A DNA stretch of 34,286 nucleotides from a virus, in the IMG/VR virus record IMGVR_UViG_3300009285_004569, positions 1 to 34,286 of that record. The stretch is one strand, 5' to 3'. The notes under the pieces are model-generated. The model searched no databases. It saw only the letters and a list, made by a program, of their open reading frames with translations, and was not told the origin of the DNA. Both the position numbers and the translations under genes were made by a program. Below are positions 15,034-34,286 of the stretch, piece after piece. Every line of letters begins with the position of its first letter. Positions within the stretch are counted from its first letter, which is position 1.

Positions 15034-15234
15034 TTTGGTTAAAAATTGAAATAACAATAACCCCATTACCGGCATGGCTGCGCCGACGGCTCCCCAGATG
15101 CCGGATTTGATCTTCAAGCCTTCGATGTCGAGTTTGAGAGAAACTATTTTTTCATCCATTTTTTCGACAGCCCTCGAAAGGCGCGCCAGTTCTGTTGAAA
15201 TGAACATCGCATTTTCCTCAAATGATTCGGCCAT
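15028..15234 (-). CDS. Small coiled-coil membrane protein (XhlA/holin-like candidate)
   Basis: The product is 68 aa. Residues 1-45 form a charged amphipathic helix with heptad-like spacing (ISTELARLSRAVEKMDEKIV). Residues about 46-66 form one hydrophobic segment (GIWGAVGAAMPVMGLLLFQF) followed by a short TKT tail. Coiled coil followed by a single C-terminal membrane helix is the plan of XhlA-type proteins that accompany phage lysis genes. No endolysin is seen nearby, so a lysis role is unproven. It could instead anchor the secreted proteins encoded just upstream. It starts one base inside the preceding stop (TAATG). Confidence 0.45.
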   Translation of the reverse strand: MAESFEENAMFISTELARLSRAVEKMDEKIVSLKLDIEGLKIKSGIWGAVGAAMPVMGLLLFQFLTKT

Positions 15235-17246
15235 TATCGTCCCTCTAGTAATCGAATTCGCTGTTCCAGCGAATCTATCCGTTTCAGCATTTCCTGCATT
15301 GCCTGTAATTGATAAACTTGTAATTTGTTTACGCTATAAGAGTTTTCTTCAAATATTAAATTCCCATCAGCTAGTCTCATATATTCAAAAATAAACTCGG
15401 TTTCCCCCGCCTTTTGCGTTGCCTTACCCTCGGACTTGTCAATCTTTTTACCCTTACTCCACCATTGCCCCTTGAACGTGCCGTCCGCTTCGATGATCTT
15501 TTTTGGCACCCTGGCGATTTTAGGCAATGTATCGGTGTCTATGTATTTTCTTTGAGCGCCGTCAGGTTGGGGAATAGCTTTTGATTTTATCGCCTTCAAC
15601 GTAGCCAGTATGTCTTCATAATATACCAGCCCCTCCCTTGAACACGACGTCACGTTATTCCAATCATCGGCGTATGCGTCGTCAATGACATTTGTCGTTG
15701 CGTCCCCGAAGTCAACAAGTTTTAAACCTGGGCACCTAATTGATGTTGCGCTTACAATCTGAAAAGGCACAACGGCTGACCCTATCGTAAACGATAGCAT
15801 ATACCCATTGTTAGTACTTAAAAACACGGACTTCGTACCTGTCTGGGCTGCCGTACCGAATATATTAACACTTGAAGCTTGTAACATATATGCAAAATCT
15901 GCCGCCGCATTGGTGAAACTAGCAGAAAATGCTGTGTAATCGTGATTATATCTACCGCTTACATCATCGCCAATAGTCCGTACATATTCGGAAAAACTCC
16001 CCGTCGGAGTACCAGTAGGAGTATTCGACGGTGTGCAGGTTGGCGTATTAGTTGGTGTATTTGTTGGCGTTTCGGTCGGAGTGCTGGACGGTGTATCAGT
16101 ACTTGTGTTCGTAGGTGTTGGCGTCGGTGTAGGCGTACCATACACCATGCCGCCAGCGATTGATACGTCGCCTAATATGCGCAAATCAGCCGATACCCTG
16201 AAGCAAATATTTTCATCGTCCCAGGCAAAATGCTGCCCGTTTTTAGCGCCGCCATCGTAGAAAAATATAAAACTATCAAGGTCAGGGCCGTCAACATTTA
16301 TGTATAATCGGTCAGTTATGCCGACATGAGCATTGAAATAGCCTCCGTAACCAGGGTCACCACTGCCGATGCCCTCAACGCCAATTGCCGAAGCTGGACC
16401 ATCAGCCATGAATAAGCCGCCGATATTTTGCAATGGGTTATTTTCTGCTTTACCATAAGCACCGACATTAGTAGTGCCGGTATCGACTTTGGTATCGGAA
16501 TAAATACCGACATTCATGCCAGCTCCGAATGATTTATTCGAGAGTCTGATTCCGTATGTTGTTTCGGCTCCGGTATACCCATTGGTTAGGTTCATGTCGG
16601 CTAATATATAGTGAGTTCCATCACTAGCCCGTTTCATGTCATACCAACAGGAGGTATTGACGCTGTCAGGGCCAAACGCAATCTCAGCCGTTCGATTTAT
16701 TTTGAACAGCTGCGTTCCGTTAGGGTCTGTCATACGAAAATTTCCGTCACTGTCTAGCAATAAAATTAGATTTGTGTCTCGTAAAAACCTACCAATATCT
16801 CCGCTGGCAGCCTGATCGACCTGAAACGCTGGTTGGCTCGTATTGGCGTCCGCTTCCAGACAAATAGCCCGATCACCGCTAGGCAGGCTGAAATAACCTC
16901 GATAGCGATTTGGATCCCAGGTTCCCGTCGCTGTTGGAGTTGGCGTATCGGTTGGAGTTGGGCTTTCAGTTGGCGTATCAGTATCGCCGGGCGTATCGGT
17001 GTCTGTGGGTGTGTTTGTTGGCGTCCTAGTTGGCGTATTTGTGAACGTATTGGTTGGCGTTGGCGTGTTCGTGAAAGTGTTGGTGTTTGTTGGCGTATTT
17101 GTAGGTGTCGGCGTCGGCGTATCAGTCGCAGCGTGCAGGGGGGCACTTATCAAAGAAGCTAAAATAAGTACCCCCAAAATCGTGGCAGAGTGAGCGAAAT
17201 TCCAGAGTCGTTTAACGATGGAGAGATTTATAATTGCGTCTACCAT
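15234..17246 (-). CDS. Secreted Thr-Pro-repeat, fibre-like protein
   Basis: The product is 670 aa from ATG at 17246, which has GGAGA eight bases upstream. The GTG at 17261 lacks this. Residues 1-39 form a Sec signal peptide (basic start, hydrophobic [12 protein letters not shown], then PLHA). Thr-Pro repeats follow at ~41-108. A beta region with tail-fibre-like text ([20 protein letters not shown]) comes next, then a second Thr-Pro block (~371-415) and another beta domain. A C-terminal part includes [13 protein letters not shown] and a coiled coil ([20 protein letters not shown]). Repeated linkers and a C-terminal coiled coil resemble trimeric fibres. A signal peptide is very unusual for a virion protein. 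It may be a surface protein of the infected cell or an exported appendage. Function unknown. Confidence 0.6.
16002..16136 (-). repeat. Internal Thr-Pro coding repeat block
   Basis: Degenerate short repeats encode about 45 residues of Thr-Pro-Thr-x linker in the middle of the 670-aa protein, between two beta domains. The units vary in third codon positions, so the DNA is a degenerate minisatellite rather than an exact tandem array. Confidence 0.8.
16923..17126 (-). repeat. N-terminal Thr-Pro coding repeat block
   Basis: About 68 residues of Thr-Pro repeats, with Asn, Asp, Ser and Phe as interspersed residues, follow the signal peptide of the 670-aa protein. This is the linker between the cleaved signal peptide and the first folded domain. 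Confidence 0.8.
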
Positions 17247-18493
17247 GGCTGCGTCTCCCACGAAACGTAATTCCAGAGAATAGCGCCGGTTGCATCAGGT
17301 ACCCACGTTAAAGCTACAGCATCATTCCCTTTAATGGTCATTACCAGCCAACCAAGAGACTGTTTCGATACCCAAACTCTAACCGGCGCAGTTGTACCGC
17401 TTTCACAGGCTGTGCTTATAACTTCGCACCAGTGAACGGCATCGGGAGTCGGCGTGCTGGTAGGCGTATTAGTCGGAGTGCTGGTAGGCGTATTAGTCGG
17501 AGTTTCGGTGGGTGTATCAGTTGGAGTCGGAGTGCTTGAAGGTGTGTCAGTTGGTGTATCGGTAGGTGTATCGGTAGGCGTAGCTGTTGGTGTGCTCGTT
17601 GGCGTATGTGTCGGAGTGTCGGTTAGCGTCGGCGTGTTTGTTGGGGTATCAGTGGGGGTCTCCGTTGGCGTACTAGTCGGTGTTTGAGTAGGGGTCTCTG
17701 TCGGCGTATCGGTTGGAGTTTGAGTTGCTGTATTAGTTGGTGTATCAGTCGGCGTTTGAGTAGCTGTATTTGTTGGCGTATTGGTTGGAGTGCTGGTTGG
17801 GGTGCTCGTACATGTCCCGACGAGGTCTTCGGTTATTTCTATCTCATCAAAATATGCGCTCATGCCAGCACCGTCTTTGGCAGTTGTTATCAACAGGCAA
17901 ACAGTGGAGCTGGTTGGGTTGAAATTGGTCAGCGCTTTTCGTTGCCACGCTAACATTAACGCTGGTTTTATGTCATCACCACCGATAGCTGCCTCGCAGG
18001 CGCACTCGTTGCAGACTCCGTTTTTTAATTCCGCCATGATTACGGTGTCACCTGATATGTCAGTCGCATAAACCCATATAAAAGCCGTGTATGTCGTTCC
18101 AGGGTTTACAGTAAAATATCGCACACTGGAAACCTCATTCCCGCTCGCCGAATTATGACGCAAACTATATGTTCCAGCGTACACTGTACCAGTATTGTAA
18201 CTGGCAGTGCCACCTGTGCCACAATGCGACCATAGCGACTGCGTAGCTAGTTCAAACCCATCAGAGAATGAATCGCACGCCCACGGTGTTGACGTCGCTA
18301 ACGGCGTGCAGGTGGGAGTATTTGTCGGCGTGCTAGTAGGTGTATTGGTAAACGTGCTAGTGGGGGTAAATGTCGGGGTTTCGGTTGGGCTATCTGTTGG
18401 GGTAGGAGTATTCGTTTGCGCGCTAACGCTTCCGGCCGCAAACAATAACAATAAACCAATCAGCGGAATTATAACGTAACTTTTTTGATACAT
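17240..18493 (-). CDS. Secreted Thr-Pro-repeat protein with a beta (carbohydrate-binding-like) domain
   Basis: The product is 417 aa. Residues 1-25 form a clear Sec signal peptide ([19 protein letters not shown]). A Thr-Pro linker (27-70) leads to a domain at about 72-225 with five or more Cys and an [13 protein letters not shown]...[13 protein letters not shown]...YFDEIEI layout. This layout is common in jelly-roll, carbohydrate-binding-like modules. A long Thr-Pro linker (228-351) and a C-terminal domain (~352-417) with one Cys pair follow. It is the first gene after a strong promoter, and its stop overlaps the next gene by 7 bases. The two genes share the signal peptide plus Thr-Pro plan. 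A surface or host-interaction role is inferred. Confidence 0.6.
17441..17812 (-). repeat. Long Thr-Pro coding repeat block
   Basis: About 124 residues of Thr-Pro-Thr-x units (x = Asp, Asn, Glu, Ser, Gln, Ala) are encoded by degenerate 12-bp-based repeats. It is the longest of the four Thr-Pro blocks. A shorter one lies at 18284-18415 in the same gene. The repeats also create long open plus-strand frames of Val-Gly, which are shadows. Confidence 0.85.
18284..18415 (-). repeat. N-terminal Thr-Pro coding repeat block of the 417-aa protein
   Basis: About 44 residues of Thr-Pro-Thr-x units directly follow the signal peptide of the 417-aa protein. Confidence 0.8.
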
Positions 18494-25457: not shown

Positions 25458-25529
25458 CGGACTTGATCGAACTCGAACCGATTACTCCAGTTTTTCAGAC
25501 TGGCGCTTTACTCGTTAAGCTACAAATCC
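25458..25529 (-). tRNA. tRNA-Phe (anticodon GAA)
   Basis: The folded cloverleaf uses these elements: acceptor GGATTTG with CAAGTCC and discriminator G; D arm GCTT/AAGC; anticodon stem CCAGT/ACTGG around loop CTGAAAA with anticodon GAA; T arm ATCGG/TCGAT with the loop TTCGAGT. Every stem pairs fully, with G-T pairs only in the acceptor and T stems. The CCA end is not encoded. The D loop (AACGAGTA) lacks the usual GG pair, so it is slightly atypical. The gene lies between two Cys-rich protein genes in one transcription unit and may be cut from a longer message. Confidence 0.85.
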
Positions 25530-34040: not shown

Positions 34041-34063
34041 GGTTTCCCTATGAAAATAGAAAA

Positions 34064-34088
34064 GCCCACGGCGGTTCAGGCCGTGGGC
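34064..34088 (-). terminator. Attenuator-like hairpin before the primase gene
   Basis: An 8-bp perfect stem (GCCCACGG/CCGTGGGC) with a 9-base loop is followed on the minus strand by TTTTCTATTTT, ending 24 bases before the primase ATG. The leader peptide stop (TGA, 34078-34076) is in the loop, so a ribosome finishing the leader would prevent the stem from forming. Confidence 0.7.
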
Positions 34089-34144
34089 CGGACGGAGAGA
34101 CACGATGGATATGAAGATAAAAGTGCGCTAAAAAATTGACTCAT
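34076..34144 (-). CDS. 22-aa leader peptide upstream of the primase
   Basis: ATG at 34144 has AGGGAGA about 5 bases upstream and opens 22 codons (MSQFFSALLSSYPSCLSVRP then TA) before TGA in the loop of the terminator-like hairpin. The strong ribosome-binding site and the exact position of the stop suggest regulatory translation rather than a functional peptide. It has many Ser and Leu codons. Confidence 0.55.
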   Translation of the reverse strand: MSQFFSALLSSYPSCLSVRPTA

Positions 34145-34182
34145 TGTGTCTCCCTATTGTAGAAAAATCGTGAACCTCGATT

Positions 34183-34199
34183 TCGGCTATTTTAGCCGA
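34183..34199 (-). promoter_or_regulatory. Palindromic operator over the -10 box
   Basis: TCGGCTA-TTT-TAGCCGA is a perfect 7-bp inverted repeat centred on the -10 hexamer of the primase promoter. A bound repressor would block polymerase. The XRE-type or RHH-type protein of this phage, or one outside the window, could bind it. Confidence 0.55.
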
Positions 34200-34217
34200 T
34201 CAGCGCTTCTCTGTCAA
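34189..34217 (-). promoter_or_regulatory. Consensus-like promoter for the primase operon
   Basis: TTGACA (34217-34212), a 17-base spacer and TAAAAT (34194-34189) give a strong sigma-70-type promoter, with a start near 34182. The message first carries the leader peptide (34144) and the hairpin, then the primase gene. Confidence 0.75.
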
Positions 34218-34286
34218 GGCTTCGTCTCAAAAATCCCTTCACCTTGAGAAGATTTATTTTTTCATGTTGGATTAGCACCCAAGCCA

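Follow-up and report, generated by a model that had tools for sequence, protein, structure and literature searches.

We identified a putative transcription attenuator, i.e., a terminator-gated leader between a Cro-like gene and a primase gene, near the end of a 34,286-nt viral sequence and on its minus strand. The sequence, hereafter the window, is the whole of IMG/VR record IMGVR_UViG_3300009285_004569. Judging from sequence and from comparison with one related phage, we assign this reading a probability of about 0.75. Along the minus strand, a promoter is followed by a 22-codon leader ORF, a GC hairpin with a U-run and the primase gene (ATG 34040), and the hairpin and U-run are positioned 22 bp upstream of this start codon (Table 1). 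Because the terminator sits between promoter and gene, production of primase from this promoter requires read-through. The original prediction had described a promoter, palindromic operator, leader peptide and hairpin stacked before the primase, whose expression could depend on leader translation. A terminator between a strong promoter and the primase was indeed found, and the same layout recurs in one related phage (IMGVR_UViG_3300009285_001594), whereas the palindromic operator was not upheld.

Table 1. Features of the leader region and its flanking genes, in window coordinates
Feature	Position	Strand	Description
Cro/CI-type HTH gene, 3′ end	34192-34286, runs off window	-	Translated frame
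Sigma-70-type promoter	34217-34189	-	-35 TTGACA 34217-34212; 17-nt spacer; -10 TAAAAT 34194-34189
17-bp palindrome over -10	34199-34183		TCGGCTAAAATAGCCGA; 7-nt arms, 3-nt centre; probably incidental
SL1, stem-loop or DNA dyad	34184-34164 (repeat 34183-34165)	-	AAATCG-N7-CGATTT, at predicted RNA 5′ end
Leader ORF (predicted)	ATG 34144 to TGA 34078-34076	-	22 codons, MSQFFSALLSSYPSCLSVRPTA; SD AGGGAG 34155-34150
SL2, long-range hairpin	34154-34095	-	12-bp helix by RNA folding, 34154-34142 with 34107-34095
Terminator hairpin	34089-34063	-	7-nt loop CTGAACC 34079-34073, containing leader stop TGA 34078-34076
U-rich tract	34063-34053	-	TTTTCTATTTT, directly after hairpin
Primase gene	34040-31185	-	951 aa; CHC2 zinc ribbon, DnaG N domain, Toprim

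Genomic setting and related phages

No close relative was found besides this related phage (36.4 kb; 82% identity in the primase; its coordinates are given as L107). Viral searches using the primase, a primase sub-domain, the HTH protein and DNA patterns recovered the element in this phage only, while a genome scan returned relatives at ~25% only. Short matches at chance level were all that a blastn search with the leader recovered from phages and plasmids. Distant primase relatives (31%–35% identity) were without the leader, and in L025-L029 the primase gene directly follows another coding region. A partial SRP54-type GTPase is encoded on the opposite strand where the relative's contig ends (PF00448, L107 16208-16447, plus strand), and this part is a host flank or chimeric end.

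The C-terminal half of the primase matches phage families, among them DNA polymerase/primase. An N-terminally extended version starting from GTG 34103, inside the leader (+21 aa), was considered and discarded: the window has no stop in this frame, but in the relative it does not join the primase frame. On the other side of the leader, the HTH gene ends in a TAA stop that doubles as the opening TAA of the -10 box. The relative has co-directional upstream genes ending with a Cro/CI-type HTH gene, whose last codons overlap the promoter, and this full-length gene (L107:10913-11212) matches HTH_3 (PF01381, E 2.4e-9). Elsewhere, the window carries two proteins with long TPT repeats among its structural genes (15234-18493) and a single tRNA-Phe (GAA) gene (25458-25529, minus strand).

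Promoter and terminator

The strong promoter of the original prediction is present as TTGACA-17-TAAAAT (11/12 consensus bases), scored, like the SD, by assumed rules that may not be those of the host. It ties for the best match within the scanned parts of the window and of the relative. The relative has a promoter in the same place (L107 10927-10899), again 11/12 and with a 17-nt spacer. Its distance from a conserved CGAAATCG equals that in the window, and it is kept although the surrounding sequence is rearranged, differing by an insertion of ~34 nt. RNA synthesis is predicted to start near 34182, ~7 nt past the -10 box, and no promoter-like site was found between the terminator and the primase. 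A second 11/12 promoter in the window (18552-18524) follows a terminator at 18633-18607.

The palindrome said to overlie the -10 box also exists in the window. It was looked for in the relative and is absent there, and the window contains 13 palindromes by the same criterion (7-nt arms, 0–3 nt centre); a role as operator is not supported, given this non-conservation and near-chance frequency. Just downstream of the -10 box we found a different repeat, AAATCG-N7-CGATTT (SL1), which had been overlooked previously. It occurs once per contig and is kept in the relative, while L122 carries the SL1 string alone, with the remaining element absent. The repeat could act as operator for the Cro-like protein encoded upstream, either in place of an RNA stem or in addition to one.

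The GC hairpin followed by a U-rich run likewise proved to be as described, and this combination is what defines an intrinsic terminator. Folded alone, the hairpin has 10 pairs, including one G.U, and a free energy of -20.1 kcal/mol. It was also the strongest candidate in coding-strand terminator scans of both the window (-20.7 kcal/mol, next -16.2) and the relative (-20.3 kcal/mol, next -12.9). A 9-bp terminator stem is identical in the two phages, each with TGA in the loop and a U-tract. The arrangement expected of an attenuator, i.e., a terminator between a promoter and the first gene that is kept in relatives, was thus found in the window and in one relative. Two further, near-identical GC hairpins (GGCCGGG..GGCC then TGGCTTTTTC) are located in the early region of the relative (L107 15522-15501 and 15843-15823, minus strand).

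Leader ORF and predicted RNA folding

The 22-codon ORF with a strong ribosome-binding site was present as predicted, with its stop in the hairpin loop (Table 1). In the relative, the leader ORF also has 22 codons (MILFYSAFLSSYPSCLSVSPTA), begins at GTG and is preceded by a weaker SD. The two phages share its length, its frame and the stop in the loop, with zero indels from start to stop, and in both the ORF reaches into the terminator, as in pyrBI-type attenuators. Nonetheless, the position of the stop is not clearly beyond chance. In composition-matched shuffles, an ORF from ATG 34144 reached the loop stop at a frequency of 0.59, and the chance fell to 0.21 when leader length was random; given this range (0.21–0.59), an ORF ending in the loop is a suggestive geometry rather than a statistical anomaly.

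Substitutions between the two phages did not indicate purifying selection on the leader peptide, and their pattern gives no support to a conserved peptide, which was rejected as an explanation. Synonymous changes affect 2 of the 16 identical leader residues, compared with 343/781 in the primase (Fisher p 0.046; binomial p 0.008 for a deficit of synonymous changes; leader counts are small), and yet there are 5 amino-acid changes in the leader (170/951 residues differ in the primase). Hence, conservation is at the nucleotide level and not at the peptide level. An RNA element, whether translated or not, would be expected to look like this, and a switch needing a ribosome but no particular peptide would leave the same pattern. 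A trp-type leader-peptide attenuator was also rejected, given the lack of clustered control codons (serine codons make up 6/22, of mixed types and unclustered) and of a stable alternative antiterminator helix. No helix competing with the terminator stem was found by folding, and when the 3′ arm was left out, the 5′ arm paired weakly.

These results also bear on an alternative in which the hairpin is a plain terminator of the upstream operon with constant leakage, read-through is unregulated, and the ORF and the helix at its SD are incidental. The hairpin would also end the Cro-like operon, such an ORF is not unlikely to arise by chance and there is no sign of peptide selection, all as this alternative would have it. 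In both phages, however, the promoter precedes rather than follows the terminator, and conservation extends over the whole leader, whereas a plain intergenic spacer would be expected to drift; we consider a plain terminator unlikely.

A phage small RNA was weighed as a further alternative, in which a ~125-nt transcript is itself the product and the primase mRNA arises by read-through, comparable to IsrK of Gifsy-1. The RNA is predicted to be structured (5′ stem-loop, long hairpin and terminator), and the rarity of synonymous changes is accompanied by a 31-nt run that is identical in the two phages (the longest in the primase are 47 and then 26 nt). Elsewhere on the coding strand of each phage, however, no stretch complementary to the leader exceeds 11 nt, and no Rfam family matched the leader region at its curated threshold. 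Matches to SdsR/RyeA, spanning 34053-34192 (plus) and 34056-34151 (minus) of the window and including the string UUUUAGCGCAC, remained far under the cut-offs (18.5–25.2 bits versus 37–38), and that to RyeA (E 0.0088) occurred in the window only and is absent from the relative. We treated this resemblance as chance and regard a small RNA as the least probable of the alternatives.

RNA folding revealed a second structure, SL2, that the first reading of the sequence had overlooked and that is predicted in both phages. Here, GGGAGACAC-A-AUG, comprising the SD and the start codon of the leader, forms base pairs with CAU-C-GUGUCUCUC, which lies within the ORF. The relative forms the same helix and lengthens it, keeping 11/11 shared pairs. 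Two substitutions fall in the helix, and both preserve pairing: one exchanges G.U for A-U, and the other A-U for G.U at the start codon (AUG versus GUG). Two-sided, compensatory changes were absent from this comparison of two sequences. Mean pairing of the SD and start codon was 0.91 in both phages, versus 0.68–0.69 with the leader body shuffled, and only 2/300 shuffles paired as highly in each phage; the two results are not independent because the sequences are related. Folding of successive RNA prefixes indicated that the SD-locking helix appears only at ~88 nt of RNA, and that the SD is free or weakly paired earlier. As modeled, the completed leader RNA would conceal its own start, since codons 13-18 mask both SD and start codon by pairing.

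The SL2 loop is single-stranded and largely conserved, and could be read, together with the conserved stem-loop at the predicted RNA start, as a target for protein-dependent antitermination similar to that at lambda tR1/tR′. A phage or host factor would then load at the promoter or onto the early transcript, at SL1 or the SL2 loop, and carry polymerase past the terminator into the replication genes; the ORF would be fortuitous. SL1 could be a boxB-like hairpin, and the order of Cro-like gene, terminator and replication gene in the relative also agrees with such a mechanism. On the other hand, no boxA was found above chance (best scores of 8/10 and 7/10, with shuffle frequencies of 0.15 and 0.68), and no antiterminator was recognised among the relative's scanned upstream genes, although such proteins are hard to recognise. 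We view antitermination as improbable.

A putative ribosome-loading switch and its closest known counterparts

The explanation that we favour overall, at only just short of even odds, combines the terminator-gated leader with a timing switch based on ribosome loading. Transcription from the strong promoter would end by default after ~125 nt at the intrinsic terminator, where transcription from the upstream operon probably also ends, and primase would be made only from read-through transcripts. The leader SD would be usable only while the polymerase transcribes the next ~45 nt; afterwards, pairing with codons 13-18 would shut off both SD and start codon. A ribosome loaded early would reach the loop stop and prevent the terminator from folding; as suggested by the geometry, its leading edge would extend to the 3′ arm, so that the hairpin could not close. 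If no ribosome had loaded, the RNA would close and transcription would end. The peptide product itself would be irrelevant.

From these features we infer termination in vivo, translation of the ORF and translational control of read-through, and of these, leader translation as the trigger of read-through is plausible, with the odds leaning somewhat against it. In Escherichia coli, termination fell from ~90% to <10% when ribosomes stopped a few bp upstream of the terminator (PMC4824070). Translation lowered the efficiency of a terminator situated 30 bp into an ORF by only ~10%, because RNA polymerase is seldom caught so early (PMC4824070). The first ribosome needs 100–200 nt to catch the polymerase and rarely does so within the first 100 nt, and pyrBI is named as an exception in which pausing couples ribosome and polymerase (PMC4824070). 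The distance from start codon to release in the leader is 88 nt, within the range where terminators escape ribosomes (PMC4824070). This distance is unfavourable, and a translation switch would therefore need a polymerase pause or fast loading.

A more specific proposal, which we advance tentatively and hold to be rather doubtful, is that the switch senses the rate of ribosome loading in the host, as its SD and start codon would shut within ~45 nt and the loop stop would decide transcription of the primase. If so, the onset of phage DNA replication would be coupled to the translation capacity of the host by a cis-acting RNA switch, without a regulatory protein, and the timing of phage replication would become testable by simple reporters. 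The RNA design would also be compact, with one ribosome-loading event controlling both access to the start codon and termination.

The element is likely attenuator-like and of a known kind, with the SD-locking helix, seen in two phages only, as its unusual part. Among prophages, it resembles isrK-orf45-anrP of Gifsy-1, where a prophage promoter gives a short terminated RNA and a read-through mRNA with phage genes, with alternative folds; there, the read-through mRNA is the trans target of the short RNA, and orf45 follows the terminator (PMC4825925). In contrast, the leader ORF described here precedes the terminator, and a trans target was not found in the coding strand of either phage. In lambda, too, a terminator separates downstream phage genes from a Cro-like gene or a strong promoter, in cro-nutR-tR1-replication genes and in PR′-tR′; the leader differs from these in having no nut-like boxA above chance and no antiterminator recognised among the scanned upstream genes of the relative. 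The ampC attenuator of E. coli is under growth-rate control and has a minimal ORF. The likeness here is that ribosome loading on the leader start before the terminator would report translation capacity; ampC is not known to have an SD-locking helix. In E. coli pyrBI, the polymerase pause senses nucleotides and the leader ORF runs past the terminator. The phage leader shares with pyrBI a short ORF that extends into an intrinsic terminator, whose hairpin a coupled ribosome keeps open (PMC4824070). It differs from pyrBI in that its stop is within the loop and its start is sequestered by a predicted helix.
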